DNA from: Sporanaerobium hydrogeniformans
Lineage (GTDB): Bacteria; Bacillota; Clostridia; Lachnospirales; Cellulosilyticaceae
Assembly: GCF_002735925.1 (NCBI RefSeq)
Contig: NZ_PEDL01000019.1
Location: 1-59,691 of the forward strand
DNA: 59,691 nt
Direction: 5' to 3'
The notes beneath the pieces were generated by a model. It saw only the letters and a program-made list of their open reading frames with translations, searched no databases and was not told the DNA's origin. Positions 14,560 through 30,730 of the stretch are shown one piece after another; position 1 is the first letter of the stretch, and the number at the start of each line of letters is the position of its first letter. Position numbers and translations under genes: made by a program.

Positions 14560-14994
14560 ATGTTTATAGTAAAGGATTTTAATGATATAGAGTTGATTAA
14601 AGATAATAATCAAATCAGGTATCAGTATGTAATAGAATATTTTGGATATATTTACGGGCAATTAGGAGAAGGAATCATAGAAAAAACTAGATTTAGCCTA
14701 GATGGCGGATTTGATGGAAATGGTGAAATATATATACTAGAAGATATTAAAGAAGTAAGAAGAATATTGGAAATAGAAGACAGTAGGTTTATAAATAAAT
14801 TATTATGGTGTTATAAGTTAAGAGATAAAGAAGCGTGGTATAGGGGTCAAGATGTTTGTGAATGCTATGTTATTGGAATGATGAATAAAAAAAATTATAG
14901 TAATAATATTATTTTTGATAGAAGTTGGTTAAGTGAAGATGAAAAGATATATTTTGATAAGATTAGTACGTATACTCGATATGTGGAGGTTTGA
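14560..14994 (+). CDS. Hypothetical protein (144 aa)
   Basis: An acidic, aromatic-rich soluble protein with no recognisable domain: RYQYVIEYFGYIYGQLGEGI in the N-terminal third and a conserved-looking WYRGQDVCECYVIGMMNKK segment in the second half. The RBS is GAGGAGATGAAAAG before the ATG. It stands alone between two hairpin terminators inside the island, so it may be independent cargo or an immunity-type gene. No function assigned. Confidence 0.6.
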   Translation: MFIVKDFNDIELIKDNNQIRYQYVIEYFGYIYGQLGEGIIEKTRFSLDGGFDGNGEIYILEDIKEVRRILEIEDSRFINKLLWCYKLRDKEAWYRGQDVCECYVIGMMNKKNYSNNIIFDRSWLSEDEKIYFDKISTYTRYVEV

Positions 14995-15055
14995 AAATTT
15001 TAGTTATTATCAATATGTAAGGTCAAGTAAAATAAACAAATATTATATTATTGAA

Positions 15056-15083
15056 GCCTATTAGGATATGGAACCTAATAGGC
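15056..15083 (+). terminator. Intercistronic hairpin (attenuator-like)
   Basis: GCCTATTAGG/CCTAATAGGC with an 8-nt loop and a weak TAATTTT tail, ending 15 bp before the AAAGGAGGG RBS of the next gene. Similar stem-loops lie just upstream of several other island genes (16850, 17529, 18823, 28272). Confidence 0.6.
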
Positions 15084-15116
15084 TAATTTTCTGTCCAAAG
15101 GAGGGAAGTAACCAGT

Positions 15117-15368
15117 GTGATAAGAAATCTAATAAATCAAAGAACAGAAAAAGCACAAGCAGAAATGGAGATGAGAAGCAATGAAATTAAAAACTTGAGA
15201 AGAACAAAAAGAAAACTATTCAAGAAAGCCAACACAAAGACAAAAGACATTCTAATGAAGCAAGAAGAGCTAGAGAGCAGAGAAAGAGAAATCATGGCAA
15301 GAGCAGTATACATACAAGCAGTTAATGACATATTAGACATAATAAAATGGCTACTTACAAAGGTATGA
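15117..15368 (+). CDS. Small coiled-coil protein (83 aa)
   Basis: A highly charged, almost wholly helical protein: Arg/Lys/Glu heptads over residues 5-65, then a short hydrophobic end DIIKWLLTKV. GTG start with AAAGGAGGG about ten bases upstream. It converges on the XRE repressor gene; the two 3' ends share a 15-bp inverted repeat. Possibly a DNA-element accessory protein; no family recognised. Confidence 0.6.
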   Translation: MIRNLINQRTEKAQAEMEMRSNEIKNLRRTKRKLFKKANTKTKDILMKQEELESREREIMARAVYIQAVNDILDIIKWLLTKV

Positions 15369-15399
15369 AATCAATCATTTACCAGTAAGTAGCCATTTT
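15344..15399. terminator. Inverted repeat shared by two convergent gene ends
   Basis: AAAATGGCTACTTAC (15344-15358) and its exact complement (15385-15399) lie at the 3' ends of the coiled-coil gene and the XRE gene. Each arm encodes KWLLT in its own gene. The transcript would fold into a stem with a 26-nt loop and a T-rich end, a likely bidirectional terminator inside coding sequence. Confidence 0.7.
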
Positions 15400-15617
15400 A
15401 CATCTACCTTGAGAGCTTTTGCAATAATAACAACTTCATAGTCAGGAACTAATCGCTCACCACGTTCAATCTTAGAAATAGCAGTTCTGTCTAAAGTAAG
15501 TCCTCTAGTCTGTAATCTAGCAGAGAGGTCTTCTTGAGTGATTTTGTTTTCTTTTCTAAAGGATTTGAGACGTTCACCAATTATATTCTTACTATGAGTG
15601 GGAGTGTTTATCTTCAT
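15375..15617 (-). CDS. XRE-family HTH repressor
   Basis: An 80-aa Cro/CI-type DNA-binding protein. IIGERLKSFRKENKITQEDLSARL and RTAISKIERGERLVPDYE are the canonical XRE helix-turn-helix, and the protein ends right after it (VDVKWLLTGK). The ATG at 15617 has AGGTGAT upstream; an in-frame upstream ATG lacks an RBS. It diverges from the rightward gene at 15756, and the gap between holds TGTGCT/AGCACA half-sites, so it is probably the element's control switch. Confidence 0.85.
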   Translation of the reverse strand: MKINTPTHSKNIIGERLKSFRKENKITQEDLSARLQTRGLTLDRTAISKIERGERLVPDYEVVIIAKALKVDVKWLLTGK

Positions 15618-15663
15618 ATAATCACCTAAATATACTACATATGAAATTATATTGTGTAGTATT

Positions 15664-15722
15664 AGCACATTTTTAGTTGATTATATTATGAAAAATAAGT
15701 ATAATTGTGCTAAAGAAGCACA
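15664..15722. promoter_or_regulatory. Candidate XRE operator in the divergent gap
   Basis: TGTGCT-N5-AGCACA (15706-15711 with 15717-15722) is a perfect inverted repeat, and another AGCACA half-site is at 15664-15669. AT-rich promoter-like sequence lies between. The position between the divergent XRE and secreted-protein genes supports an operator role. Confidence 0.55.
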
Positions 15723-15755
15723 TAATTAAAAAATAAATAAAGGGAGTTGATTATC

Positions 15756-16541
15756 GTGAGAAATATAATAAAAAAATTAGTAGTAGGGGGCTTGTGTTTA
15801 GCATTATCAGTGACAACAGTATTTGCTAGAACTTGCATAGATAAGCAGATTCCAGATTGGGCAGATGGTGGCATAAGAGAGCTAGTAGATGAGAATATAA
15901 ATGGTGGAACAAGAACTATAACAGATGTTGTTGTAAGAGATGGAGTAGCTTTTGTTAGTGCACAAGAATTGGGGAAAGCTTATGGCTTTGGGGATTATGA
16001 ACATAAGCAATCTGAGCTTTTAACGAAAATTGGAACGGATTCAATACAATCAGCAGAACACAGGATTGCAAATACTGTATATATTGACAGAGATAAAAAT
16101 GGAAAAATTAAAGGAACATATACTGTATATACAGGAAGTAAACAACAGTGCATGGGATTAAAACCTAATGAGGTACCAGATTCTTGGCTAACAGATCCAT
16201 CAGTAGGTGTAAATGAAGAATCAAGAGAAGCCATTCGAAGAAGTAATGAAATATTACTTAATAATCCTGGTTTTGATGGAAAATTTGAAACCAAGGATAT
16301 GCCGTTTTACAAGAATGATAAGTTGTATGTTCCAGCAAAACTAATGTGTATATTACTGAATAATAATATTAATACCAAAGTAACGTATGATGCTAAAAAT
16401 AATACAATTACCTTTCAAGATGAAGTGTGTGCACCTATTTATACATGTATAGGGTATTATTTACATGAAAATGGAAAGGTAAAAGAATGGTATTTTGATG
16501 GAAGATATGAAGAGGCAGATACGTTTAAATGGAATGAATAA
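15756..16541 (+). CDS. Secreted protein with copper-amine-oxidase-N-like domain
   Basis: A 261-aa exported protein. Residues 1-24 are a signal peptide (MRNIIKKLVVGG..., cleavage after VFA). The body has two stalk-like repeats: VVVRDGVAFVSAQELGKAYGF (about 50-70) and KLYVPAKLMCILLNN...VTYDAKNNTITF (about 190-225). These match the Cu_amine_oxidN1 pattern of clostridial surface proteins, which is structural rather than enzymatic. GTG start with AGGGAG nine bases upstream. Unusual cargo for a recombinase-driven element. Confidence 0.7.
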   Translation: MRNIIKKLVVGGLCLALSVTTVFARTCIDKQIPDWADGGIRELVDENINGGTRTITDVVVRDGVAFVSAQELGKAYGFGDYEHKQSELLTKIGTDSIQSAEHRIANTVYIDRDKNGKIKGTYTVYTGSKQQCMGLKPNEVPDSWLTDPSVGVNEESREAIRRSNEILLNNPGFDGKFETKDMPFYKNDKLYVPAKLMCILLNNNINTKVTYDAKNNTITFQDEVCAPIYTCIGYYLHENGKVKEWYFDGRYEEADTFKWNE

Positions 16542-16583
16542 CAGATAAAAAGCACTGGTAGTATAGATGGGAGGATAAATTAA

Positions 16584-16754
16584 ATGGGAGTTATAACACT
16601 TATTCTAGCAGCAATTGTAGGAATCGTAGTAGAAGTTTTATATCATAAGATATTTAAGGTAACATACTTTAGTGGTGAAGCTATTTTAAAGGAATTATTT
16701 GTATGCTTTATGATTGGGTTATTTGTAGTAATGGGGTTAACAGGACAATTGTGA
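16584..16754 (+). CDS. Small two-helix membrane protein (56 aa)
   Basis: Two hydrophobic helices (about 2-20 and 38-54) are joined by a short charged loop. RBS GGGAGGA lies nine bases before the ATG, and it sits 42 bp after the secreted-protein gene in the same direction. Ordered codons, RBS and a clean frame support a real small gene. Function unknown. Confidence 0.55.
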   Translation: MGVITLILAAIVGIVVEVLYHKIFKVTYFSGEAILKELFVCFMIGLFVVMGLTGQL

Positions 16755-16849
16755 TGTAGAGATATAAGACATGGAAGAGCATATAATTAATTCTTGTCAA
16801 AGACTCTTTGATTACTTATTTGAGTAAATAAAATGCTAAATATTACATA

Positions 16850-16876
16850 GACCTGTTGGGTATTGCCTGACAGGTC
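16850..16876 (+). terminator. Intercistronic hairpin before the DUF1643 gene
   Basis: GACCTGT/ACAGGTC stem with a 13-nt loop and a TTTT tail, ending about 15 bp before the AAGAAGGG RBS. It acts as a terminator or attenuator. A second small stem (CAAAGA/CTTTG) precedes it near 16798. Confidence 0.6.
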
Positions 16877-16907
16877 TTTTAGCGTGCCAAAAGAAGGGAT
16901 GATTAAA

Positions 16908-17558
16908 ATGATAGAAGAAAATAATACAATGGTCACAAGAGCAGTTTTTTCGGAAGATAAATCACATAGATATCTACTTAGTAAAGAATGGGATGCTAGT
17001 CTAGCAAATGCAGTAGTCATCATGCTACAAGCAGGAAAATCTAATGCACTAATTCAAGATGTAACGACCTGTAACATTATCAACTGTGTATCTCAGTTAG
17101 ATGAAGACTATGGCAGTGTTAATATAGTCAATTTATTTAGTAGGCTAGATTTAGAACTAGATACAGATATAGATATTGATGATTTCACGGATGAAGAAAA
17201 CGATAGACAAATTAAAGAAGTAGCAGAAGGAGCAGAGCTGATTATACTTGCATATGGAAAGGCTCAAGAGACAAGCCTTTGTGTAAAACAACGTGTAAGA
17301 GAAGTTATATCACTATTAGAAAAATACAAGGACAAAATGTATTTGATTGGGGATTCTAAAGGAAGAAAGGGTTTTTCTGCTATGTATCCTAAAGTAAGGA
17401 ACAAGTGGATCCTATACAAAGCTTATGAAGAAGAACAGAAAAAAGAAAGTGACAAAGTAGCAGAGAATATAGAAACACCACAGACAGAACAACAAACCAT
17501 AGAAGATCAGAAGAGTAATAATGAGACAAAGACTAAGAAGAATAACAGAAAATCTTAG
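16908..17558 (+). CDS. DUF1643 family protein
   Basis: A 216-aa protein. AVFSEDKSHRYLLSKEWD, VVIMLQAGKSN, YGSVNIVNLFSRLDLE and ELIILAYGK follow the DUF1643 pattern; the usual MLNPSxAD is changed to MLQAGKSN. The last 40 residues are a charged, Gln/Lys-rich tail. Its biochemical role is unknown, but it is a frequent companion of the ccr recombinase genes in staphylococcal SCC elements. The start at 16908 has AAGAAGGG nine bases upstream. Confidence 0.82.
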   Translation: MIEENNTMVTRAVFSEDKSHRYLLSKEWDASLANAVVIMLQAGKSNALIQDVTTCNIINCVSQLDEDYGSVNIVNLFSRLDLELDTDIDIDDFTDEENDRQIKEVAEGAELIILAYGKAQETSLCVKQRVREVISLLEKYKDKMYLIGDSKGRKGFSAMYPKVRNKWILYKAYEEEQKKESDKVAENIETPQTEQQTIEDQKSNNETKTKKNNRKS

Positions 17559-17562
17559 TCTT
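17529..17562 (+). terminator. Hairpin at the end of the DUF1643 gene
   Basis: AAGACTAAGA/TCTTAGTCTT forms a 10-bp stem with a 14-nt loop overlapping the stop codon, followed by ATTTAAT. It is terminator- or attenuator-like and lies just upstream of the next gene. Confidence 0.55.
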
Positions 17563-17589
17563 ATTTAATGTGTGAAAGGAATGAGGAAA

Positions 17590-18174
17590 ATGAGCATAGA
17601 GCAACTACCATTAGAAATTAAAAAGTGTTTCTTAAGAGAGCTAGAAAAGCTTGTTAGCAAGTATAGTCCATTTAGTAATTATCCAGATGAAACGATAAAA
17701 ATTGCTATCAGCATCTCAGATAGAGTAGGCGATTCGGCTATTGATGAACTAGATGTAGATTATCTGCTAGAGATATTAGATAGGTTAAACCAGTATAGTG
17801 AGCAGGTGGTAGAATACTTTATTTGGCATAATAAAAATTTAATAGGCACTGTAAGCCTTGAGAAAGCAAAAGAGCAGATAGAGGAAATCAATAGCAATGG
17901 ATTTACTATGTTAGAGAACTACGTGATTTACACTAATGAAAATAATAGGCAGATGAAACGAGAAATAGCTGAGAGAATGCTGACAGACACCTATCAAATT
18001 GACCGACTCTTTGATAAAGATGAGCTAATAGAAATGTGGCTCAATGAGACTTCTCAAGAAGATACAATTAGAGATTTGATGAAGTTAGGATTGGAAGAAT
18101 TACTAGAACAACCACCAGAAGAAGCCTATGTAAGAAAGGATGGCACAGGTATTTATTATGCCAGTATTGAATAA
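17590..18174 (+). CDS. Hypothetical acidic helical protein (194 aa)
   Basis: A soluble, acidic, mainly helical protein. The N-terminal part (LPLEIKKCFLRELEKLV) and DELDVDYLLEILDRLNQYSEQVVEYF look like helical hairpins; the end is GTGIYYASIE. I use ATG 17590 with GAAAGGA nine bases upstream, although in-frame ATG 17581 and GTG 17572 are possible. It is part of the DUF1643-DUF960 gene string. Function unknown. Confidence 0.6.
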   Translation: MSIEQLPLEIKKCFLRELEKLVSKYSPFSNYPDETIKIAISISDRVGDSAIDELDVDYLLEILDRLNQYSEQVVEYFIWHNKNLIGTVSLEKAKEQIEEINSNGFTMLENYVIYTNENNRQMKREIAERMLTDTYQIDRLFDKDELIEMWLNETSQEDTIRDLMKLGLEELLEQPPEEAYVRKDGTGIYYASIE

Positions 18175-18188
18175 GAAGAGGTGTGAAG

Positions 18189-18455
18189 ATGGAAAACAAA
18201 ATTAAAGAAGCTATTCAAGAAATGGATATGATGGACAAGCTAGAAGAGGACATAGCAGTATTCTATAAAGAAACGCTAGAGAAGATTACTAAGCAAGATG
18301 TAGAAATTATAGTAGAAGAAATTTCAGATGGTAAATATGGCGTACAGGTTCTATTTGAAGGCAGGATCTTTTGGATGATTTCAAAAGCGTGGGATACAGT
18401 AAGAGAAATTACTATAAATATCTTAACTGTTATTAATGAATTGCAACTAATTTAA
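18189..18455 (+). CDS. Hypothetical protein (88 aa)
   Basis: A small acidic protein with a helical N-terminal half and a hydrophobic C-terminal half (FEGRIFWMISKAWDTVREITINIL). RBS AAGAGGTG lies before ATG 18189. It is packed 14 bp after the preceding gene and 17 bp before the next, so it belongs to the same unit. No family recognised. Confidence 0.55.
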   Translation: MENKIKEAIQEMDMMDKLEEDIAVFYKETLEKITKQDVEIIVEEISDGKYGVQVLFEGRIFWMISKAWDTVREITINILTVINELQLI

Positions 18456-18472
18456 TTGAGGAGAAGAAAAAC

Positions 18473-18823
18473 ATGATTAAAATAGGAACAGTTAAAGAAA
18501 TGGATAAAGTAAAAACATTACCTATAAAGGTAGTAGAAGCAATAAAGGATTCATTAGTGATTTTAGATGAAGCATATGGAGCCAAAAGGAATATAGAAGG
18601 GGATTTAGGTGGGTTCGTATTGGTTATTGAAAATGAAAAGGATATTGAAGTAGTAAAGAAAATGAATCTAGATATCTACAAGGATATCCCTGAATATGTG
18701 GATAAGATGTTAATAAGCTCAGAGGAAATGTGGGTAAAGGTATTATTTCTATTGAGTAATGATTATGCAGTAGTAATTGTAGGAAAGGAAAGCATAATAC
18801 AAATGAATAAATTAAATTTCTAA
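18473..18823 (+). CDS. Hypothetical protein (116 aa)
   Basis: A compact alpha/beta protein: EGDLGGFVLVIENEKDIEVVKKMNLDIYKDIPEYVDKM, then WVKVLFLLSNDYAVVIVGKESII. The clear RBS GAGGAGAAG and tight spacing place it in the element operon. A hairpin follows at its stop codon. I recognise no family; a small immunity or anti-restriction type role is only a thought. Confidence 0.55.
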   Translation: MIKIGTVKEMDKVKTLPIKVVEAIKDSLVILDEAYGAKRNIEGDLGGFVLVIENEKDIEVVKKMNLDIYKDIPEYVDKMLISSEEMWVKVLFLLSNDYAVVIVGKESIIQMNKLNF

Positions 18824-18855
18824 AAGGTCAATCTCTAATTGGGGGATTGACCTTT
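18823..18855 (+). terminator. Hairpin between the 116-aa gene and the JAB gene
   Basis: AAAGGTCAATC/GATTGACCTTT is an 11-bp stem with an 11-nt loop, starting at the stop codon of the upstream gene and lying 20 bp before the RBS AAGGAAGG. The tail is only moderately T-rich. Confidence 0.65.
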
Positions 18856-18887
18856 AATTATATTTAAAAAAGAAGGAAGGAAAAACA

Positions 18888-19331
18888 GTGCAGGCAAAAA
18901 GAGTAGATATAGTACAAGTCAAAATGGTAAAGGAAGGTAGCGTGCTTTATTCCGCTAGAAGAATACAATCCACTTCTGATGCAGATGAATTGGTTAGGCA
19001 ATTTTTAGATGAGCTAGATAGAGAAGCAATGATAGTTGTAGCTCTTAATACAAAATCAGAACCTACTTGTTTACAGGTTATTTCAATAGGAAGTCTTAGT
19101 GCATCTATTGTTCATCCAAGAGAAGTATTTAAAGTGGCTATATTGAGCAATGCTTATAGCATTCTGCTTGCTCATAACCACCCATCAGGGGATACAACAC
19201 CCTCACAGGAGGATATAAAACTCACTAAGAGAATAAAGAATGCATCTGACATTATGGGTATTTCACTATTAGATCACTTAATCATTGGAAGTGATGGCTA
19301 TTATTCGTTCAAGGAAAATGGAGAACTATAA
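18888..19331 (+). CDS. JAB (RadC-like) domain protein
   Basis: A 147-aa JAMM/MPN+ protein. The metal motif HxH-x7-S-x2-D is complete (H96, H98, S106, D109) in LLAHNHPSGDTTPSQED. It lacks the N-terminal helix-hairpin-helix of full RadC, so it is the short form usual on mobile elements. The fold is a zinc metalloprotease or isopeptidase type; the true target is unknown. GTG start with AAGGAAGG upstream. Short RadC genes also occur in SCC elements. Confidence 0.88.
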   Translation: MQAKRVDIVQVKMVKEGSVLYSARRIQSTSDADELVRQFLDELDREAMIVVALNTKSEPTCLQVISIGSLSASIVHPREVFKVAILSNAYSILLAHNHPSGDTTPSQEDIKLTKRIKNASDIMGISLLDHLIIGSDGYYSFKENGEL

Positions 19332-19350
19332 GAAAAGGAGACAGGATAAT

Positions 19351-19656
19351 ATGAAAAAAATAGAAAGATACATGACTAGAGGAATTCAAGCTGATGTGCC
19401 AATGGAAATACAGTTATTTCTATGGGAGCTTCAAACGGGAATCAGAAAAAGTAATAAGGAAATAGATTATCTACAAGTATATGACTTAATTATAGAAGAA
19501 GGACAACAAAAAATAAGACATACATCAGAAGAGCCAGAATATGAGAAAGAATATGTTATACAAGTAGAAGAACCAATGACTGCCAAGATATACATTATTG
19601 AAGATGATTACGGAGATAAGCTAGTTGAGACCATGCTTTTAGCAGAAGAGTATTGA
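19351..19656 (+). CDS. DUF960 family protein
   Basis: A 101-aa protein. RYMTRGIQADVPMEIQLFLWELQ, EIDYLQVYDLIIEEGQQKIRHTSEEPEYEKEYV and the acidic end match DUF960, a small family common in phages and beside ccr genes in SCC elements. The ATG at 19351 has AAAGGAGA upstream. A strong terminator follows, ending the rightward DUF1643-DUF960 transcript. Confidence 0.8.
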   Translation: MKKIERYMTRGIQADVPMEIQLFLWELQTGIRKSNKEIDYLQVYDLIIEEGQQKIRHTSEEPEYEKEYVIQVEEPMTAKIYIIEDDYGDKLVETMLLAEEY

Positions 19657-19667
19657 TTCGAGGGAAT

Positions 19668-19717
19668 AAAAAGAACAACAAGAAGGCATATGGGACTATC
19701 TATGTTGTTCTTTTTTT
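19668..19717 (+). terminator. Terminator after DUF960
   Basis: AAAAAGAACAACA (19668-19680) pairs with TGTTGTTC and TTTTT (19703-19715), with a 22-nt loop and a run of seven Ts. Confidence 0.88.
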
Positions 19718-19799
19718 GTCTAGGAAGCATATAGAAAGAATTATTACCATTTGATAATAGCTGAGATTAGTTAAAGGTATGATTAGTTTTATCTAAAAA

Positions 19800-20130
19800 A
19801 TGAGCTATATATTATATTAATGGAAGGTAAGAGCGTAAGAAGAGCCTTCTTAAAGCATCCGGCACATAGAAAGTAAAATTTGTCTAAGAAGATAGCATGA
19901 ATTCGGCTCTTTCGGGACTTTCGGCATTGGAAAAGTTCTTTGGGGTGCTCAATATGGTTCTAATTTTCCTTGAAAAGGAAAAAATGCCGAAAGTAGCAAA
20001 AGTCGTGAAAGTAATTTACTTGTTATGTCTAAGATGTAACTATATGTTACTGTTGTTCTACTTTGTGAAGTGTCCTTTGAACCTAATGTAACTCTAAAAA
20101 GTAGCGGTCAATATTTTGCATGGGTTGTTA
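19800..20130. other. Gene-free structured stretch left of element L
   Basis: No credible gene is present. ACTTTCGGCATT (19917-19928) and its exact complement (19983-19994) enclose a second perfect hairpin, TTTTCCTT/AAGGAAAA, near 19964-19982. GC is well above the surrounding AT-rich DNA. The minus-strand reading carries GGTTCAAAG and TTTCGGCA segments also found in the right-hand element (23640-23665), so this may be its extension. Confidence 0.5.
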
Positions 20131-20291
20131 GAATAAGCCCTGCATTTCAGTTCACTATACCAAAAGTGACGCATGCCTTCGCTAGTGGCTACGCATGCTC
20201 AAGCACTTTTGGACAGCTCACTTCCATGTCATAGCCTATCGGCTATGCCTCAACCTGGTTCAGGTTGAGCTTGGTTATTTGAAGATTAATA
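20131..20291 (-). ncRNA. Structured non-coding element, left copy (L)
   Basis: Read on the minus strand directly after the stop of the 211-aa gene: hairpin 1 CTCAACCTG/CAGGTTGAG (20269-20249), hairpin 2 CATAGCC/GGCTATG (about 20247-20230), then the TGACAtGGAAG segment. Hairpin 3 is a long stem, CCAAAAGTG...CACTTTTGG (20212-20160), with inner GCATGC/GCATGC and ends GTGCTTGAGC...GCGTCAC. Last comes GAACTGAAATGCAGG. The same order of hairpins with compensatory changes occurs in the right copy (23426-23580). Whether it works as RNA or DNA is not decidable here. Confidence 0.6.
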
Positions 20292-20927
20292 TTAACTAAT
20301 CAGCTCAGGAGTGTTTTGAGAAAGAAATTTAATTCGTTGAAGTATTTCTTTAGAATAATTGTTTTCGCAAGCATAAATTCTTAGGATTCCTTTGCCCTCA
20401 GTAATTCCACGTATCTTGTTAATATAAAGCTCATATAAAAGTTCACTTATAGCAGAGATATAAGAATTATTGGTGAATTCTATAACAATACAACGTTCTA
20501 AAAAAGGGTTGCTTTCGAGTTTGGATTTTTTTTGTATAGCGGGAAGACGGAATATACTATGATAGGGATTTAATTGTAATAGATAGTGTAAAGCCATTTC
20601 TTTATGGTATGTATCAAAATTGGTCTCAAAATTAAGAACACCTGTTTTATTATTCCAAGTATATCCTGCACTTTGCATATAATAACGAAAATTGGGAAAA
20701 GTTAATTTTTCTTTAAAAAGACCTTCCGAGGTACTGCATGTAATTTGATATAATTCCTTGATGGTTACATAATCTTCTTTATCCTTTATATATTCTAGGT
20801 TGGTGAGTTTAAGCATTTCATCATATGTTGATGATGTCTTATAAGAAGTCAAGAATTCTCTTAATTTATTATTTCTGTTAATTAGAGTTGCGTTGGTTGC
20901 TCTAGTTCTTTTTTGTACATTCTGCAT
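20292..20927 (-). CDS. Hypothetical protein, possibly ArgR-like two-domain fold (211 aa)
   Basis: The only leftward gene of the replication module. The N-terminal half (VTIKELYQITCSTSE...FPNFRYYMQSAGYTW) could be a winged helix. The C-terminal part (RCIVIEFTNNSYISAISELLYELYINKIRGITEGKGILRIYA) recalls the small alpha/beta oligomerisation domain of ArgR. The similarity is in pattern only. Start 20927 has GGAGGAA upstream. It is divergent from the 216-aa gene across an AT-rich repeat region, so a regulator or origin-binding role is plausible but unproven. Confidence 0.5.
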   Translation of the reverse strand: MQNVQKRTRATNATLINRNNKLREFLTSYKTSSTYDEMLKLTNLEYIKDKEDYVTIKELYQITCSTSEGLFKEKLTFPNFRYYMQSAGYTWNNKTGVLNFETNFDTYHKEMALHYLLQLNPYHSIFRLPAIQKKSKLESNPFLERCIVIEFTNNSYISAISELLYELYINKIRGITEGKGILRIYACENNYSKEILQRIKFLSQNTPELIS

Positions 20928-21038
20928 AAAAATAGTTCCTCCATGCTTAAAATTTTTTTACAACAGTTTTAAGTAGTGGTTAAGTATAAGCTATATTTAT
21001 ATTTAATGACTTCGGTAAAATATACTCCTTTTTGCATT

Positions 21039-21201
21039 AAAAGTCAAATTATAAAGTAAAAAATAAGTAAAATAAGTAAAAGTATAAAACTTGAGGATGT
21101 AGAAATGAGGTAAAAAGCCTTTTAAATCAAATATAAATTAGATATTATATAAATCACAAAAGACTAATTATAAAATAAAAAATAGTAGAAATAAGTAAAG
21201 T
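21039..21201. repeat. AT-rich direct repeats, candidate origin or operator
   Basis: Two ~45-bp imperfect direct repeats start at 21039 and 21158. Both contain ATTATAAA, TAAAAAATA and AATAAGTAAA; the first has AATAAGTAAA twice in tandem. The 318-bp region 20928-21245 is extremely AT-rich and lies between divergent genes next to the primase-helicase gene, the usual place for a replication origin with iterons. It could also be a repressor binding region. No gene is present. Confidence 0.5.
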
Positions 21202-21245
21202 TGTTCTACTTGGTCTGATGAAAAATATATAAGGAGTGATTATTT

Positions 21246-21896
21246 ATGAAGAATGTAAAAGATGCAATGAAAGAAATAAACTTATTCAGAAATGAGGTGA
21301 ATCAATTAAATTCATTATCATTACAGCATCCAGTTGAGGATGCAACTGATGAGATAACAATTGTTCTAAATGAAAATGAAAATCTAGATACATACATTAG
21401 ACAGTATCACGAGTTTATGGGTGAGAATGAACTTAGTTATTTCAGTGACGTTAGAATATATGAATCAGATGAGATAGAAGACGTACTGGAAAAGATATTA
21501 GAAGATATAATAACTGGTCGCATACTAGGTGGAGTTTTGATGACGAGTTATAAAGATATAAAGCATACAGAAGTTACAGGTAGATGCTTTAAAGCATTAA
21601 TTGAACAAATTAGACTAGAACATGTATGTTATCCTCTTGACTTTTATATAAAAAATGAAGATACAAATAAAGAGTTAGATGAATTAATTAAAACTACTTT
21701 ACAATTACTGGACAAGAGAGAGATAACAGAAAGAATACAATTTAAGAATGCCATCATAAATGAGATTATTGAATACTATTATATATTTCATGATGTATGG
21801 GAAGATTTGAATGCTAAATGGGATGAACGGCTAGAAAAAATGAAACTTGAAAAAGAACAGCAAGATAGGATAGATGAGTTTTACTTAGAAGAGTAA
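21246..21896 (+). CDS. Hypothetical acidic protein (216 aa)
   Basis: An acidic, mainly helical protein ending in a coiled-coil-like charged tail (WDERLEKMKLEKEQQDRIDEFYLEE). The middle (DEIEDVLEKILEDIITGRILGGVLMTSYKDI) has no recognised motif. RBS AAGGAG lies nine bases before the ATG. First gene of the rightward replication unit, 146 bp before the SF3 helicase, with a structured leader between. Possibly a replication initiator partner; no family assigned. Confidence 0.6.
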   Translation: MKNVKDAMKEINLFRNEVNQLNSLSLQHPVEDATDEITIVLNENENLDTYIRQYHEFMGENELSYFSDVRIYESDEIEDVLEKILEDIITGRILGGVLMTSYKDIKHTEVTGRCFKALIEQIRLEHVCYPLDFYIKNEDTNKELDELIKTTLQLLDKREITERIQFKNAIINEIIEYYYIFHDVWEDLNAKWDERLEKMKLEKEQQDRIDEFYLEE

Positions 21897-22042
21897 TTAC
21901 ATAGCAGTGATAGGCAGTGGCGTCTCAGGGTCAACAAAACTGCCGCAAGCCTTGAAAACTCAACAAAGGGTCAAAGTGGCGTACCAACTGCTTTGCTCTT
22001 TGTTGTGGCAAGAGGCTACAACGTCAAAAAAGGAGCGAATAA
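21897..22042 (+). promoter_or_regulatory. Structured leader of the primase gene with competing hairpins
   Basis: The GC-richer 146-bp gap can form CAACAAAG (21961-21968):CTTTGTTG (21998-22005), or alternatively GTTGTGG (22002-22008):CTACAAC (22016-22022). The two stems share 22002-22005 and are mutually exclusive. The second lies just before the AAAAAAGGAG RBS. GGCAGTGGCGT at 21913 recurs near 23662 in the leader of the next gene. It looks like an attenuation or translation switch. Confidence 0.45.
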
Positions 22043-23425
22043 ATGAAGACCAAGAACTTACAAGAACAACTTGAAGAAAAGTTAGAAGATATAGTGCCCA
22101 TTTCAGATGATGAACTACCAGAAAAAGGAATAATCCTTAATGATGATAAAAACGCTATAAAATACATAAACTGGAACATATTTATTGCTTATTTTCTAAC
22201 TATTTACACTATCATTTATACAGACTCAAATGTACTATATGTCTATTCTGATAATGTCTACTGGGAACTATCAGAAAATACATGTTTAAGACTAGTGAGA
22301 AATTTATTGCACTTATCAATCCCTAATTCTTGGAAAACTGGTTATGAAAAAGTAGTTCTATCTATAATTAAATTGGAAGTCCGTAAGATTTCTAATTTTA
22401 ATCAAGATATGAAAAGGTTGAATCTGTTAAATGGTATATGGAACATGGAAAAACAAAAATTAAGCAAACATACGCCTAAGTTATACACTTCTAATCAAAT
22501 TCCAATAACATATCAGCAGGATGCAAAGTGTCCTAAATTTAGAAGATTTTTAAAGGACATTTTTGAGGGAGATAAACAGAGAATCAAACTTGTTCAAGAG
22601 ATTATGGGATATTCCTTAACTAATCTATCAAAGGCACAAAAAGCATTTATATTTCTAGGAACAGGAGCGAATGGAAAAAGTGTTCTGATGGATATAATGA
22701 TAAAGCTTGTAGGTATAGACAATGTATCAACATTACCTTTGAGCGATTTTGAAAGTTCATTTAGGAGATGTATGCTAATGGACAAAAAGTTAAATGTTGT
22801 AACAGAGGCTGAGTTTAAAACAAATGCTTTTTCGACTAATCAATTTAAAGCTATTGTATCAGGTGATGTAACAACAGGAGAAATAAAAGGTGGGAAGCTC
22901 TTTAACTTTAGAGCATACTGTAAGATTGTAATTGCAATGAATGCATTACCTAAAGTTAAAGATAAATCTTATGGTTTTAAAAGAAGAATATGTGTAGTTG
23001 TTTTTGATAAAACCATAAAAAAGGAAGAGCAAAATAAGAATTTATTACTAGAACTAAGTAGTGAATTAGATGGGATATTTAATTTTGCATTAAAAGGGTT
23101 AAAGCGGTTAGAAGAAAATGACTTCAATTTTACACACTCAGAGAGATGTGAAGAATACATGAACGAATATTTTAAAGAAAATAATCTACTTGAAAGCTTT
23201 GTAGATGAGAAGCTGGAGCAAGGCAATAAGAATGAAAGAATAAAGAATCCAGATTTGTATGATGGTTATATAAAGTGGTGCAAAAATAAGAAGATTAATG
23301 GTAAGAATTATGCAAAAAAACAATTTACTATGGATTTGAAAAGTGTTCTTAATGATAAAGATATTAATTTTGTAGCAGATAAAAAGAATGGTATAAGAGG
23401 TCTACAAGGAATCCGGTGGAAGTAA
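22043..23425 (+). CDS. SF3 helicase / phage-plasmid primase, D5-P4 family
   Basis: A 460-aa replication protein. The D5_N-type region (about 150-200, FRRFLKDIFEGDKQRIKLVQEIMGY) leads into Walker A GTGANGKS (206-213), an acidic Walker B-like segment KLNVVTEAEF (about 255), and the SF3 sensor segment IVIAMNALPKV. No clear primase catalytic domain is seen in the first 130 residues, so it is mainly a helicase. RBS AAAGGAG. It suggests the island replicates after excision, as proposed for SCC elements, although those use MCM-like helicases. Confidence 0.85.
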   Translation: MKTKNLQEQLEEKLEDIVPISDDELPEKGIILNDDKNAIKYINWNIFIAYFLTIYTIIYTDSNVLYVYSDNVYWELSENTCLRLVRNLLHLSIPNSWKTGYEKVVLSIIKLEVRKISNFNQDMKRLNLLNGIWNMEKQKLSKHTPKLYTSNQIPITYQQDAKCPKFRRFLKDIFEGDKQRIKLVQEIMGYSLTNLSKAQKAFIFLGTGANGKSVLMDIMIKLVGIDNVSTLPLSDFESSFRRCMLMDKKLNVVTEAEFKTNAFSTNQFKAIVSGDVTTGEIKGGKLFNFRAYCKIVIAMNALPKVKDKSYGFKRRICVVVFDKTIKKEEQNKNLLLELSSELDGIFNFALKGLKRLEENDFNFTHSERCEEYMNEYFKENNLLESFVDEKLEQGNKNERIKNPDLYDGYIKWCKNKKINGKNYAKKQFTMDLKSVLNDKDINFVADKKNGIRGLQGIRWK

Positions 23426-23580
23426 AAATAAGAACAGCTAAGCTCATTCATCTTGATGAATGAGTCACAGTCGGTGCAGACTGTGACAGGAAGCGAAATA
23501 CTAAAAAAAGTGCTTGAGCGAGCAAGCCTAAAGCGGCGTCGAGCGTCACTTTTTTGAGTAATGAGCTGGATGCAGGTGTT
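23426..23580 (+). ncRNA. Structured non-coding element, right copy (R)
   Basis: Starts just after the helicase stop: hairpin 1 CTCATTCATC/GATGAATGAG (23443-23464), hairpin 2 TCACAGTC/GACTGTGA (23465-23486), then TGACAGGAAG. Hairpin 3 is AAAAAAGTG...CACTTTTTT (23504-23555) with ends GTGCTTGAGC...GCGTCAC. Then comes GAGCTGGATGCAGG. Order, spacing and unpaired segments match copy L, while the stems of hairpins 1 and 2 differ by paired substitutions. Related sequence (GGTTCAAAAGG, TTTCGGCAGTGGCG) runs on to about 23705, next to the RBS of the following gene. Confidence 0.6.
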
Positions 23581-23710
23581 CAAAAAGAAAAAAGCAAATT
23601 CAAAAATAATGCCTCTCATGCCACTGATTTGGAGATAGTCTAGGTTCAAAAGGTGGTTTCGGCAGTGGCGTAGTGGTGGCAGATAGTGTCTATGCAAAGG
23701 AGAAAACAAT

Positions 23711-24187
23711 ATGTCAAAGAAAAAGATAAAGAAGTTAGAAGAAATAATTGATATAGAAGAATTGAGCGAAGTTGAAGAAGTAAAAGGTAGTGTTCGTAAA
23801 AAGAGTAAAGGTGGATTTGGGGTAATAAATACTCCAACAGGAAAAAGAGTTACACTAACTAAAAAAATCTATGGCAAATTGAAAGAACCAGAAGCAGTAC
23901 AGGTAGCACTCTTAGATGAAGAAGTGTTAATAGGTGAAGTAATTCCAAATTGCAAAGAATCGCACCTAGTTAGACAAACGTCAAATGGTGGAGGGGTATG
24001 TATATATTGTGCAGGACTAGTTAAAGCAATTACAGAAAAGTACCAGTTAGATTTTAGTGATTGTTCTTCTATGACGTTTTCCGATATTGAGTACTGCCGA
24101 CAAGATGGAAAAAGGATAGCAGTAGTACATATGGTTAAAGAAGATGAAGAAGACATGTATGAAGGAGGGGAAGAAGACTATGAATAA
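23711..24187 (+). CDS. Hypothetical protein (158 aa), SCC-accessory position
   Basis: A charged N-terminal tail (KKKIKKLEEIIDIEELSEVEEVKG), a compact middle (GGFGVINTPTGKRVTLTKKIYGKL...VALLDEEVLIGEVI), a CIYC pair, and a very acidic end (EDEEDMYEGGEEDYE). The acidic tail is common in ssDNA-binding or phage accessory proteins. RBS AAAGGAG before the ATG. It lies between helicase and recombinases, where SCC elements carry the small ssDNA-binding LP1413 protein; the sequence relationship is not shown. Confidence 0.6.
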   Translation: MSKKKIKKLEEIIDIEELSEVEEVKGSVRKKSKGGFGVINTPTGKRVTLTKKIYGKLKEPEAVQVALLDEEVLIGEVIPNCKESHLVRQTSNGGGVCIYCAGLVKAITEKYQLDFSDCSSMTFSDIEYCRQDGKRIAVVHMVKEDEEDMYEGGEEDYE

Positions 24188-24269
24188 AGAGTATGAATGT
24201 TTTTTGGGAATGCTTGCAGAGCTTGTGATTCAATATTATACAAAACAAAAGCAAAATGATGCTGCTTAG
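24180..24269 (+). CDS. Tiny ORF overlapping the preceding gene (29 aa)
   Basis: The ATG at 24180 overlaps the end of the 158-aa gene by 8 bases and has GGAGGGG nine bases upstream. The peptide MNKEYECFLGMLAELVIQYY ends in TKQKQNDAA and is helical and amphipathic. Strong RBS and coupled overlap support translation; function unknown. Confidence 0.45.
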   Translation: MNKEYECFLGMLAELVIQYYTKQKQNDAA

Positions 24270-24299
24270 TGAGTATTATACAAGAAGGAGGATCTGTAA

Positions 24300-24650
24300 A
24301 TGGAGAAAGAATTAGAGCAAGAAATATTAGAATTATGGAGCAGAAGGAGTAAGAGTATAAGGCAGAAGCAAGAAGGATTGAGCGAAAAAGTACCACGAGC
24401 AAAATTTATGGTGCTACCTAATATAAGTGATGGGAAAGGAAACACATATATAAGTATTTTGGTAGAAGGTATTGTTTTGGAATCTGTGATTGATTATAGA
24501 CCAGAGCAATTCCAAATAAGCGGAATTATTAAAAGATGGCGAAACAGAGATATGCCGATGGTTATTAAAGAATGTTATTTGAATCGAAGTGTACATAAAA
24601 AATATAATGAAAGGGGAATATTGGTTAAAGAAATAATAACGTATGATTAG
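24300..24650 (+). CDS. Hypothetical protein (116 aa) upstream of the recombinases
   Basis: A basic, alpha-beta protein: helical N-terminus (LEQEILELWSRRSKSIRQKQEG), then a beta-rich part (AKFMVLPNISDGKGNTYISILVEG) and a basic end. RBS AAGGAGG. It is the last gene before the first serine recombinase, a position held by small DNA-binding or directionality factors in other elements. No family match can be claimed. Confidence 0.55.
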   Translation: MEKELEQEILELWSRRSKSIRQKQEGLSEKVPRAKFMVLPNISDGKGNTYISILVEGIVLESVIDYRPEQFQISGIIKRWRNRDMPMVIKECYLNRSVHKKYNERGILVKEIITYD

Positions 24651-24752
24651 CAGTAGATATAAAGAAATATTGAAATTCACCTTTGAGGGATATAACTTCA
24701 TCTACAGACCTATATTATTTTAATGATAATAATAGGAAAGGAGACACTTAAT

Positions 24753-26285
24753 ATGCTGAGAAAAGTAGTAGGCTACATACGAGTTAGTACACAAATGCAA
24801 GTAGAAGAAGGTTTCAGCATAGAAGGACAGAAACAACAAATACTTGAATATGCTAAAAAACACAATATGGAAGTTGTTGGTTTCTATGTAGATGAAGGTA
24901 TCTCGGGAAAAAGTATTGAAGGAAGACATGCACTTAAAAAACTATTAGATGATACCAAGAAGGGTTGCTTTCAAGAGGTCATTACATGGAAAGTCAGTAG
25001 AGTAGCAAGAGATGTAAATGACCTCTTATATTTTATTAAAGAACTTAATAATGAAGATATAGTATTAAGAAGTATCAGCGAAAACATCTCTACAGAATCT
25101 GTCAATAGTACCTTTTTAGTTCAAATGATGGGTGCTGTTGCAGAACTTGAAAGAAAGGTGATTACAGAGAATGTTAAACTAGGGATTAACCAGAAGCTAA
25201 GGGAAGGTTGGTACAAGGGAGCACCTGTTCTAGGGTATGATATTGTTCCAAAGAAATTATGTAAAGAAAATCATATTGAAACAAACTTGCAAGTAAATAA
25301 AGAAGAAGCAGAAGTGGTCAAATTAATCTTTAATCTATATGAACAAGGAAAAGGCTATAAGGCTATTGTTAATGTACTTAATACAAACAACATAAAAACT
25401 AAAACAGGTAAAAATTTTAGTATTGGCAGCATCAATAAGATTTTAAATAGGAGACTTTACACAGGAGAAATAGAGCACAAAATCAATGGAAAGATAGAAA
25501 TTGTCCAAGGAAAACATGAACCTATCATCACCATGGAACAGTGGCAGGAAACTAGAAAAGATACTTTAAGGGAACACAAAAAAAGAGAAAGTAGGATTTT
25601 TACATTATCAAAACTATTAAAATGTCCTCAATGCAAAAGTACAATGGTGGGTGGATCGTCAGTAGGAAGAAGAGGAAAGAAATATTACTATTACCTTTGT
25701 GAAGATCACTTGAATAAAGGTAAGGCAGTATGTAAAGCAAATTCGGTTCCGGCAGATAGAATAGAAGAGGAAGTATATAGGGAATTAGGCAGGCTTATTA
25801 ACCAACCTCAAATAGTAGAAGAAGTGTATAGAAAAATTAATACCTATAATGCTGATTATAGACAGAAGATGAAAATGCTTAATGAATTTGCAAGTAAAAA
25901 AGAAGTATTAGAAAAAAGAAAACGGTTATTAATGAAGCAATTTGAATTAGATAAGCTTTCAAAAGAAACCTTTATAGTAAGTATTAATGAAATTAAAGAG
26001 CAACTTGTAACAATGGAACAGACAGAGAAGGAGCTACAGCAATACTTAAGCGATAACGCAAAAGCAATAATACCGTTAGAAGATATTAAAGAGGTCTTTC
26101 AAAATTTGATAGAGTTATTAAAGAAGCAGGAACCAAAGCAAATAAAACAATTATTAGTATATATTATTAATGAAATTGTAGTAGATGAAAAGAAATACTT
26201 AAAGCACATTGAATTTAAAATAAAAGGTCAAAAATTCTATCTAGATGCTAAGGAGGAGATGGAAGATGTCAGACAAGCTAGATAA
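24753..26285 (+). CDS. Large serine recombinase 1 (CcrA-like position)
   Basis: A 510-aa site-specific recombinase. The resolvase domain has catalytic Ser12 in GYIRVSTQ, GQKQQI and the arginine segment VDEGISGKSIEGR; ERKVITENVKLG follows. Next come the Recombinase domain (about 160-270), a zinc ribbon (CPQC at about 290, later CED...VCK) and a coiled coil (about 365-440). Start 24753 has AAAGGAG upstream. Its last 20 bp overlap recombinase 2. It probably drives excision and integration of the island together with its partner. Confidence 0.94.
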   Translation: MLRKVVGYIRVSTQMQVEEGFSIEGQKQQILEYAKKHNMEVVGFYVDEGISGKSIEGRHALKKLLDDTKKGCFQEVITWKVSRVARDVNDLLYFIKELNNEDIVLRSISENISTESVNSTFLVQMMGAVAELERKVITENVKLGINQKLREGWYKGAPVLGYDIVPKKLCKENHIETNLQVNKEEAEVVKLIFNLYEQGKGYKAIVNVLNTNNIKTKTGKNFSIGSINKILNRRLYTGEIEHKINGKIEIVQGKHEPIITMEQWQETRKDTLREHKKRESRIFTLSKLLKCPQCKSTMVGGSSVGRRGKKYYYYLCEDHLNKGKAVCKANSVPADRIEEEVYRELGRLINQPQIVEEVYRKINTYNADYRQKMKMLNEFASKKEVLEKRKRLLMKQFELDKLSKETFIVSINEIKEQLVTMEQTEKELQQYLSDNAKAIIPLEDIKEVFQNLIELLKKQEPKQIKQLLVYIINEIVVDEKKYLKHIEFKIKGQKFYLDAKEEMEDVRQAR

Positions 26286-27906
26286 GCCACAAGAAGTCAG
26301 AGTAGCTCTCTATGCCAGAGTATCAACAGAAGAACAAGCATTACATGGTTTTTCAATAGAGGCACAGCTTAATGTATTAAGAAATTACTGTAAGCTTTAT
26401 AATAAGAAGATCGTCAAAGAGTATGTTGATAGAGGTATTTCGGGAAAATCTATAGCAGGCAGGTATGAACTACAACAGTTGTTAAAAGATGCAGAGTCAG
26501 GCGAATTTGATGAAGTATTGGTATGGAAGATTTCAAGATTGGCTAGGAAAGTTATAGACTTACTACAGATGGTAGAAATATTTGAAAAGAATGATGTAGT
26601 ATTTCGTTCATTCTCAGAGAACTTTGAAACAGAAACACCTATGGGAAAGTTTGCACTTCAAATGATGGGTGCAGTTGGTGAGCTTGAAAGAAATACTATT
26701 GTTGATAATGTAAAGTTAGGTATGGCACAAAGAAGTAGACAAGGCAGATGGAATGGTGGTATCTGCTTGGGTTATAAGAGTGAAGCAGTAGACTCTAGTA
26801 ATAAAAAAGATACTAGATTAGTGATTGTACCAGAAGAAGCTACTATTATAAAGAAGATATTCAATATGTATGCTAGTGGCAAAGGACTAAGAGCTATTGC
26901 TAATAGTTTAAATAAAGAAGGTTACAAAACCAAAAGAGGTAATACTTTTGATACAGCATCTATAAAGGAAATTATATTGAATCCATTATATGTAGGAAAG
27001 ATAAGATTTAATAGATATGAAAATTGGAGCGAACGAAAGAGAAAAGGTAAGAGTGAGAATGTCATTTTGGCAGATGGTGTTCATGAACCTATTATCACAC
27101 AGGAACTATGGGATAGAGTACAAGCTATTCAAAAGTCAAAAGCAGACAAGCCAATGAAGAACTATGAGGGTAATTACATATTAACTGGACTTATGAAATG
27201 TCCATTCTGTGGTGCAACTATGGTTGGAACAAGAACAAATAACAAATTGAAAGATGGCACTAAGAAAGTCATTAGATACTATTCATGTGGAGCAGCTAGA
27301 AGTAAGGGAGCATCAGTATGTGGTTTCCATAGTATTCGAGCAGACTATGCGGAGCAATATGTGTTAGATAGAATTAATGTAGCAGTAACACACCCTGAAC
27401 TACTAAAGAAGTTAGTTGATAAAGTAAATGCTCATAAGAAAGAGATGGTCAAACCATTGCAAGAAGAACTTCAAGCTAACAAGCAAGCTATAGAAAAGGT
27501 GAAGGCTAGTCGTGACAAATACCTGAACCTATTTGATGAAAAGCTCATTGACCAAGAGCTGTTGACAGAGAGGCTTCAAGAGCTGAATCAAGAGTTTGAG
27601 AGGCTAGTCAAACGTCAAAACGAATTAGAAGTAAGTCTCAATGGGTGTGACTTAGAGGAGCTGACCTATGAGTATGTGCAAGAGGTCATGAGCCACTTGA
27701 ACGAAATCTTGCAGGATATGCCTAATGATGAAAGAAAAGCATTTTACCATATGATTATAGAAGAAATAGTAGTAAGTCAGGAGAAGCAAATAGAAGTGAT
27801 AAAATTGAAAATAGATGAAGAGGTTCAAAAAGAATTTATAAAGCAATCCCCATCCGAGACACAATCGGATGGGGATATTTTTATACAGATAGATATTGTA
27901 ATATGA
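26266..27906 (+). CDS. Large serine recombinase 2 (CcrB-like position)
   Basis: A 546-aa recombinase with catalytic Ser20 in ALYARVSTEEQ, FSIEAQ and DRGISGKSIAGR. The Recombinase domain spans about 175-290, the zinc ribbon starts with CPFC near 311 (second pair SCG...VCG), and a coiled coil about 400-470 precedes the end. RBS AAGGAGG lies inside the previous gene. The tandem of two different intact large serine recombinases is the hallmark of ccrAB-type systems, though tandem recombinases also occur in clostridial mobilisable elements. Confidence 0.94.
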   Translation: MSDKLDKPQEVRVALYARVSTEEQALHGFSIEAQLNVLRNYCKLYNKKIVKEYVDRGISGKSIAGRYELQQLLKDAESGEFDEVLVWKISRLARKVIDLLQMVEIFEKNDVVFRSFSENFETETPMGKFALQMMGAVGELERNTIVDNVKLGMAQRSRQGRWNGGICLGYKSEAVDSSNKKDTRLVIVPEEATIIKKIFNMYASGKGLRAIANSLNKEGYKTKRGNTFDTASIKEIILNPLYVGKIRFNRYENWSERKRKGKSENVILADGVHEPIITQELWDRVQAIQKSKADKPMKNYEGNYILTGLMKCPFCGATMVGTRTNNKLKDGTKKVIRYYSCGAARSKGASVCGFHSIRADYAEQYVLDRINVAVTHPELLKKLVDKVNAHKKEMVKPLQEELQANKQAIEKVKASRDKYLNLFDEKLIDQELLTERLQELNQEFERLVKRQNELEVSLNGCDLEELTYEYVQEVMSHLNEILQDMPNDERKAFYHMIIEEIVVSQEKQIEVIKLKIDEEVQKEFIKQSPSETQSDGDIFIQIDIVI

Positions 27907-28271: not shown

Positions 28272-28297
28272 ATGTGGGAGGTTATAATCTCCCACAT
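28272..28297 (+). terminator. Hairpin before the P-loop protein gene
   Basis: ATGTGGGAG/CTCCCACAT, a 9-bp stem with an 8-nt loop and no long T-tract, ends 18 bp before the GCGGAGG RBS. It belongs to the series of intercistronic stems in this island. Confidence 0.6.
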
Positions 28298-28324
28298 ATA
28301 CTTAAATTAGGCGGAGGAAATAGA

Positions 28325-30671: not shown

Positions 30672-30730
30672 AAAACCGCCAGTTATTTAGGTGAGGAGAA
30701 CCTTACCATAAATAAATAAGATTTTTTTTA
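30672..30730 (+). repeat. Dispersed repeat, copy C (hairpin form)
   Basis: TTATTTAGGTGAGG (30683-30696) pairs with CCTTACC-A-TAAATAA (30701-30715), then ATAAGATTTTTTTT. The 3' half GAACCTTACCATAAATAA is the copy A/B sequence with one change. Upstream AACCGCC (30674-30680) is complementary to GGCGGTT in copy A, so the ancestral unit was probably a long terminator-like hairpin. Here it can terminate the P-loop gene. Confidence 0.65.

Follow-up and report, generated by a model that had tools for sequence, protein, structure and literature searches.

The 59,691-nt contig NZ_PEDL01000019.1 of Sporanaerobium hydrogeniformans (the whole of it referred to below as the window) carries genes for two different large serine recombinases, SR1 and SR2, close to genes for DUF1643, short RadC/JAB and DUF960 proteins and a replicative helicase. 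Do these genes form a mobile island related to the staphylococcal cassette chromosome (SCC), where does such an island end, and what surrounds it? An initial annotation had placed an SCC-like element at positions 14560-27906, and profile searches recovered all of the features that it named. We conclude with considerable confidence that positions 10962-30698 (19,736 bp, placed by the end repeats) constitute a Ccr-type (SCC-like) mobile island within an integron-like cassette array. The range first proposed was too narrow, and the restriction-modification and GTPase-like genes described as lying alongside fall inside the element.

A probable Ccr-type recombinase pair

SR1 and SR2 overlap and are distinct proteins, 38% identical in a first comparison and 36% by blastp, and both are full length with all three expected domains. 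Among NCBIfam models, SR2 matched staphylococcal CcrB best (434.7 bits, E 4.9e-130, below the curated cut-off of 900) and CcrC second (338 bits), while SR1 scored 248 bits with CcrB. By tblastn, SR2 reached 358-361 bits with staphylococcal CcrB loci (38% identical) and 157-208 bits with 25 listed phage integrases. A close counterpart, 87% identical to SR2, was found in Cellulosilyticum sp. JARKVN01 (G009; recombinase locus L089, contig C38), a metagenome-assembled genome (MAG) with the same family code as the window genome (G000). A profile search of genome contigs, with SR2, the G009 protein and CcrB aligned as its query, returned 140 relatives; among the best 80, which were kept, those beyond staphylococci came from Paenibacillaceae, Bacillaceae, Sporomusaceae and Alicyclobacillaceae and were mostly 41-55% identical. 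Identity of SR2 to the second recombinases of 16 tandem pairs was likewise 41-55%, and at least 46% in 15 of the 16.

Two phylogenetic trees were built, a quick one of 100 rows and a careful one of 50 of those rows, from which CcrA was left out for its long branch. The quick tree placed SR2 together with CcrB and the second members of tandem pairs (SH-aLRT 97) and SR1 with the first recombinases (81). Staphylococcal CcrA stood apart and was weakly placed, so that SR1 as a counterpart of CcrA by descent was not supported. In the careful tree, SR2 and its counterparts in second position from Paenibacillus pinistramenti, Neobacillus and Niallia, whose loci hold rlmH within ~10 kb, formed a starred set (96/91), and SR1 joined the first recombinases of tandem pairs (92/89, not starred). 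Divergence among the first recombinases of 17 loci also paralleled that among the second ones (Mantel rho 0.78, reached in 0 of 5000 permutations; 0.76 with the window excluded), as expected of partners, although shared host descent would add to this signal.

Gene neighbourhoods were compared by tblastn in 26 non-staphylococcal loci from the top of the list of relatives (L089-L113 and L121; L134 and L137 were left out though they exceeded 41% in a best segment). A second recombinase lay just upstream in 20 loci, in pieces in some, and RlmH was matched in 21, partially or cut by the stretch edge in L091, L092, L103, L111 and L112. RadC/JAB was present in 17 loci, a D5-type helicase in nine, a DUF927 helicase in three, DUF960 in seven and DUF1643 in three. 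The staphylococcal SCC stretches (L014-L016) were ordered DUF927-ccrA-ccrB-SAUGI-DUF960-DUF1643, with JAB annotated in L016 only. From these counts and stretches, we conclude that the gene set is common in part and the helicase exchangeable. The initial annotation was right in recognizing an SF3/D5 helicase instead of the Cch type (TIGR01613, D5_N), whereas its view of this helicase as the mark of a distinct lineage was not upheld: COG3378/D5_N helicases are already given for SCCmec type V and for the rlmH-linked islands of P. pinistramenti and Niallia nealsonii (PMC10061031), which lie on the same contigs as L090 and L092. Its proposal of an SCC-like element outside staphylococci stood, given the SR2 scores and trees and the companion genes, which recur in such loci without being universal; it had overlooked the borders and the array.

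Among 392 genomes of the order, 18 had DUF960. It was rejected as an order-wide marker of the system, because nine of the 18 stretches concerned (L071-L088, from other Lachnospirales families) held a serine recombinase, and their CcrB matches reached only 84-167 bits. DUF960 may thus be found with serine recombinases in a wider context than SCC.

Another explanation would be a genomic island of the ordinary kind that relies on a phage-type large serine integrase for movement and carries DUF960, DUF1643 and RadC by coincidence. Serine recombinases are indeed common, with 32 of 41 genomes (the window genome included) matching SR2 at E 1e-3, and among the 18 DUF960 genomes only the window genome also matched SR2 at E 1e-60 (at most three candidates scored per genome). 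However, SR2 is far closer to CcrB and to the recombinases of rlmH-linked loci than to phage integrases; the element's ends are rlmH-like; RadC, DUF960 and helicases recur beside such pairs; and no phage structural or conjugation gene was named among the 20 proteins scanned (10198-30631). For the recombinases themselves, a phage-integrase assignment was rejected on the profile and tblastn scores and the trees, and we consider this explanation of the island highly improbable. Scores, trees and related loci alike gave no sign of the opposing outcome named in the initial annotation, namely recombinases grouping with unrelated phage integrases and no conserved DUF960/DUF1643 neighbourhood.

Island ends and the site behind the HAD gene

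The island is bounded by two direct copies of a sequence resembling the 3' end of rlmH, and a third copy at 33827 closes an adjoining cassette of 3.1 kb (3,129 bp) that has no recombinase. The left half of the left attachment site (attL) translates as FRINNN-EPYHK-stop, resembling an orphan RlmH C-terminus; RlmH of the window genome ends in YRINNGEPYHK. We assign the right half, GGGCGGTTTTTT, to the element itself as its half site. Before the right site (30698) stands AAAACCGCC, an inverted repeat of which, GGCGGTTTT, lies at 10981. Of the features used to define SCC, the element has an integration site repeated directly at its two ends with half sites in inverted orientation, and also the companion genes DUF960, DUF1643 and JAB with a helicase in the recombinase region. 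The element is not integrated at the rlmH 3' end, although its site still resembles the last rlmH codons, and its host is not a staphylococcus.

A loose first search for the RlmH end codons (up to three mismatches) gave five matches in the window against 2.9 expected; this count was not significant, and three of the five were the sites. A refined 18-base motif, GAACCNTAYCAYAARTRR, had three exact copies in the window (10962, 30698 and 33827), all on the + strand, and none in 100 shuffles, a figure that is partly circular because the motif was built after the window sites and the rlmH ends of relatives had been inspected. Independent support for the motif is its count in 41 genomes, 65 against one for the reversed pattern. 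Since the motif was derived from rlmH ends, degenerate sites are undercounted.

The joined site of a predicted excision circle was quasi-palindromic: 19 of 30 bases paired, with the best centre between G and A of GAACC, a symmetry reached by 0.35% of 2000 letter shuffles. GA is also the central dinucleotide described for CcrAB (PMC10581047). In G009, the 12 bases behind rlmH are likewise GGGCGGTTTTTT, and the first site beyond the G009 SR2 gene has a related left half, AAACCTCCTATTAGCTAGGTGAGGA. These sequences link recombinases of this type with rlmH in a closely related genome, on two separate contigs of the MAG.

Insertion at rlmH in the window genome itself was considered and not borne out, as rlmH lies on contig C62 and the left site follows a HAD-phosphatase gene. 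The same place could be compared with G001, a genome on one contig (4,714,237 bp) with the same genus code as G009. G001 has counterparts of seven genes from the window's left flank, 86-98% identical and among them the HAD gene (88%). In both genomes a site lies 105 bp past the end of the HAD gene. Left of the core, 18 of 24 bases agree, and both sequences read FR[I/M]NNN. Behind this site G001 holds other cassettes, with exact sites at 447971, 451682, 470465, 480597 and 483843 and one-mismatch sites at 463001 and 480465, and a MarR gene (89%) lies to the right of the array in both genomes. Window flank genes were also searched near rlmH of relatives, which yielded nothing informative.

The HAD-side site thus resembles an orphan copy of the rlmH end, as judged from its sequence, and such sites might instead be chance or convergent secondary targets rather than rlmH-derived copies. 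CcrAB has been reported to act on non-canonical sites (PMC10581047), and no further RlmH reading extends left of the last codons in the window. A HAD match was found in 19 of 41 genomes, and among ten HAD loci checked (HAD identity down to 54%), a site was present only in G000 and G001; the other eight had none within the stretch examined, usually 1.5 kb and ~0.3 kb in G009. However, the left halves read FR[I/M]NNN-EPYHK-stop or similar, as RlmH does, also at sites without the rlmH gene in G001, G008, G015 and G022, and two genera have preserved the HAD site at an identical distance. We therefore regard chance or convergent targets as a rather doubtful explanation of the orphan sites.

Cassette arrays in related genomes

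The motif occurred at 65 sites in 22 of the 41 genomes. Of these, 21 were rlmH ends, which match by construction, and 44 lay elsewhere. All 22 intervals between neighbouring sites less than 25 kb apart were co-oriented, with a median length of 3.2 kb. Across the 392 genomes of the order, 178 had a motif match, mostly a single one, and the reversed pattern gave ten matches; at least three sites were read off the listing for eight genomes of the window's family and for G036, G113, G135 and G188. An RlmH-like tail without an rlmH gene was clear in G000, G001, G008, G015 and G022 and less clear in G013, and beyond G000 and G001 the genes neighbouring these orphan tails differed. In G113, which belongs to another family of the order and has seven motif sites, a single CcrB-like recombinase (36%) lies directly beside rlmH (L069, contig C13).

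We read 21 intervals between sites (G019:C18 was left out). Twenty of them contained no intact relative of SR1, SR2, CcrA or CcrB, the exception being the window island, and SR2 remnants were seen in two, G008:C27 and an rlmH cassette of G001. Sixteen intervals were shorter than 5 kb and had one to four open reading frames (ORFs) each. Among ten cassette proteins scanned, the cargo included Septu PtuA (padloc E 3.2e-115) and PtuB (1.7e-45), a Fic protein, a dTDP-sugar epimerase, and DUF2971, HARE-HTH, Sel1, HD-CE, MerR and M28 peptidase proteins. Both genes of one 2.9-kb site-bounded cassette (L206, positions 232-3115; G013:C75) belong to the Septu (PtuA/PtuB) defence system. A further row of sites outside rlmH lies beside a gene read as MecA-like and includes the decayed SR2 remnant of G008 (L037, C27:344200-364100). 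In G001, an SR2 fragment (47 aa, 53%) is enclosed by two rlmH copies ~3.1 kb apart, one of which was marked as containing a stop codon (L023, C1:4540036-4543633), making this a cassette that carries its own rlmH. Gene co-orientation was tried as an integron mark and set aside as weak: all 28 ORFs of at least 100 aa in the 16 small cassettes were co-oriented, but so were 59 against 13 in larger cassettes and 126 against 22 in the flanks (small cassettes vs flanks, Fisher p 0.027).

Some cassettes were shared between loci. G022 carries at rlmH an epimerase cassette that recurs within the G001 HAD array (783 aligned columns, 84%), and its homology starts within 1 bp of the core and ends ~0.46 kb before the next G022 site. 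A Fic stretch common to G009 and G016 (1,471 columns, 88.6%) ends inside the core; it begins 69 bp past a site in G009 and, in G016, within a larger cassette. The epimerase and Fic borders at the core are what site-specific exchange there would leave, and the other borders would need further events.

From these features we infer the following mechanism. SR1 and SR2 would act as a pair, like CcrA and CcrB, on sites built on the last rlmH codons, with crossover at the GA of GAACC. Excision would rejoin the flanks and yield a circle whose junction has dyad symmetry, and the D5-type helicase may copy this circle. The island sits behind the HAD gene, at a site that resembles an orphan rlmH end. This site would serve as a second landing place: cassettes that share this type of ends, most of them lacking a recombinase, lie there head to tail and would be moved in trans. 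The cargo, a type IIG restriction enzyme and a GTPase-like protein, may help the island to persist. More broadly, a Ccr-type pair might drive an integron-like system in Cellulosilyticum-like Clostridia. Small co-oriented cassettes of one to four genes (one of them a whole Septu system), lacking a recombinase of their own and bounded by rlmH-end sites at rlmH and at orphan rlmH tails, would be moved in trans by rare autonomous islands. We consider this wider proposal possible but somewhat short of probable, and our confidence in it was lowered slightly because the shared cassettes match a site at one border only.

The repeats could also mark old insertions in a fixed, decaying relic in which nothing moves any longer. 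The scarcity of intact recombinases among the intervals, the two SR2 remnants and the divergence of SR1 would agree with such decay. On the other side, SR1 and SR2 retain their full length and domains, the island has both of its ends, G001 carries other cassettes at the corresponding site, and one cassette stands at different loci in two genomes. A relic is accordingly an unlikely account, and a mobile island in a cassette array remains the preferred one.

Several observations weigh against that preferred account, in addition to the HAD loci without a site and the one-sided borders of the shared cassettes. SR1 is only 29-34% identical to other first recombinases, stands on a long branch with an unstarred placement, and had no close relative in the 41 genomes, where its best match besides SR2 of the window was SR2 of G009 (37%). 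The careful tree leaves the order of CcrB, CcrC and the first and second clades unsettled. The rejoined (attB-like) site showed no special symmetry, with 15 of 30 bases paired against a shuffled mean of 14.2 (circle-site letters). The only rlmH found in the window genome is on the other contig, C62, ~0.8 kb from its end. The stretch from the last site to MarR differs between the window and G001, leaving the right array border undefined, and a third common stretch (G001/G019, 4.6 kb, 90%) coincides with no site. DUF960 was found in just two of the 41 genomes and not in G009. Many of the relative genomes are fragmented.

Gene content and comparison with known systems

The features of the island and its surroundings are listed in Table 1.

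Table 1 Coordinates of the island, its attachment sites and neighbouring features in the window
Feature	Position	Strand	Evidence
Host HAD-phosphatase gene, left border marker	10198..10857	+	attL 105 bp past gene end, as in G001
attL of island, rlmH-3'-end-like core	10962..10979	+	Motif match; right half identical to the 12 bases after rlmH in G009
Type IIG restriction enzyme-methyltransferase, cargo	11148..14423	+	padloc REase_MTase_IIG E 5.3e-162
HTH (Xre-type) regulator	15375..15668	-	Pfam HTH_19 E 2.6e-13
DUF1643 protein, SCC companion	16863..17558	+	PF07799 E 7.5e-24; 33% to staphylococcal SCC protein
116-aa protein, relatives in other such islands	18473..18823	+	phmmer matches, 6 loci: L099, L035, L096, L106, L105, L087
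Short RadC/JAB protein, SCC companion	18888..19331	+	PF04002 E 4.3e-42
DUF960 protein, SCC companion	19285..19656	+	PF06124 E 7.9e-22
P4/D5-type (COG3378-like) replicative helicase	22043..23425	+	TIGR01613 E 6.8e-68; D5_N, DUF5906
158-aa protein between helicase and recombinases	23711..24187	+	Relatives in three other islands, one weak
SR1, first large serine recombinase, Ccr-like, divergent	24723..26285	+	Resolvase + Recombinase + Zn ribbon; CcrB model 248 bits
SR2, second large serine recombinase, CcrB-like	26245..27906	+	CcrB model 434.7 bits
GTPase-like 785-aa protein, cargo	28274..30631	+	MMR_HSR1 E 7.3e-05 (weak); padloc matches weak only
Right attachment site of island = left end of next cassette	30698..30715	+	Motif match
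Second cassette, 3.1 kb, without recombinase: two short ORFs, MerR regulator, M28 peptidase	30716..33826	+	
Third attachment-like site	33827..33844	+	Motif match

The 116-aa protein often occurs near DUF1643 in Bacillota islands. The true start of DUF960 is probably internal because its profile match begins at residue 27. Profile searches named no primase domain in the helicase, and a repeat search for iterons of a replication origin gave only weak families. Among the scanned ORFs of the window, neither SAUGI nor a PolA match was named, and a 216-aa protein before the helicase was modelled only at pLDDT 40. The 158-aa protein ends in an acidic tail; it has relatives in L095 and L133 and a weakly matching one in L104, which adjoins the helicase there. 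The predicted fold of the window protein is mostly beta, and the predicted structure had no convincing match: Foldseek gave a best E of 0.053 (sliding clamps, prob 0.23), VIA-align a best Z of 5.7 (MraZ, root-mean-square deviation 8.6, 103 aligned) and a viral library a best E of 0.0029 (unnamed phage protein), and no fold is claimed. The contig starts inside a 16S rRNA 3' end (positions 1-91, Rfam RF00177), and its other end (~59640-59691) looks, from the letters alone, like the beginning of a 23S rRNA, which Rfam did not name; with its ends in rRNA genes, the assembly may break at rRNA operons.

The island shares with staphylococcal SCC/SCCmec (ccrAB) a tandem recombinase pair next to a helicase, the DUF960, DUF1643 and JAB companions, ends on the rlmH 3' end, a GA core and inverted half sites, and composite multi-site forms are known for SCC. 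Unlike SCC, it has a clostridial host, a D5-type rather than a DUF927 helicase (as in L014-L016) and no SAUGI among the scanned ORFs, its SR2 is 38% identical to CcrB and its SR1 ~24% identical to CcrA over part of the length, and it stands at an orphan rlmH-like tail instead of at rlmH. The rlmH-linked islands of P. pinistramenti and N. nealsonii likewise combine two large serine recombinases with a D5-type helicase and RadC/JAB, contain the closest recombinases outside Cellulosilyticum (55% for SR2) and form composite islands with rlmH-end repeats, whereas they carry a PolA-SSB pair before the helicase (PMC10061031) and none was recognized in the window ORFs scanned.

The Enterococcus cassette chromosome (ECC) also has a ccrAB-like pair, rlmH-type ends of ~50 bp and, commonly, DUF960; several attR sites were described in 16 of 32 elements, and transfer with a helper plasmid was demonstrated (PMC6222049). 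However, ECC elements are inserted at rlmH and span 21-78 kb, and the passages of that report used here describe no arrays of one-to-four-gene cassettes. The ccrDE islands in rimL, of 18.8 kb, resemble the window island in placing an SCC-type gene set with restriction genes outside rlmH, whereas they use their own recombinase type and a target, rimL, in contrast to the window target, which lies outside rlmH and still imitates it (PMC10581047).

Integrons are arrays of small cassettes, mostly without a recombinase of their own, at a fixed landing place, and the comparison with them is one of principle only. They differ in their tyrosine recombinase, attC hairpins and common promoter, whereas the window system has a serine recombinase and direct-repeat double-stranded sites. 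With its Ccr-related recombinases, replicative helicase and rlmH-end-like ends, the element agrees, as far as its sequence tells, with a broad description of SCC-like islands, and not with a strict definition of SCC, being neither at rlmH nor staphylococcal.

SCC-like islands outside staphylococci have already been published (PMC6222049, PMC10061031, PMC10581047). Composite and pseudo-SCC elements and multiple attR sites are also on record (PMC10061031, PMC6222049), so that the array principle is not new. Among the papers listed in a literature search of titles and abstract starts, none described such arrays in Cellulosilyticum or cassette arrays of serine recombinases; subscription journals and preprints were outside its scope, and it is no proof of absence. 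In the literature searched, we did not find a match for the small size and number of the cassettes or for the second landing place.

The origin of SCC, the vehicle of methicillin resistance, is still discussed (PMC11767417). Relatives in Clostridia with the same recombinase type, companions and sites place this module far outside staphylococci, which suggests that SCC-type gene swapping reaches far beyond them. The rlmH-like tail, which two genera retain at one and the same position, provides a natural test case for a dedicated second landing place. Judging from the arrays, recombinases of the Ccr type may carry small cassettes in trans, a possibility relevant to the interpretation of composite and 'pseudo' SCC elements.

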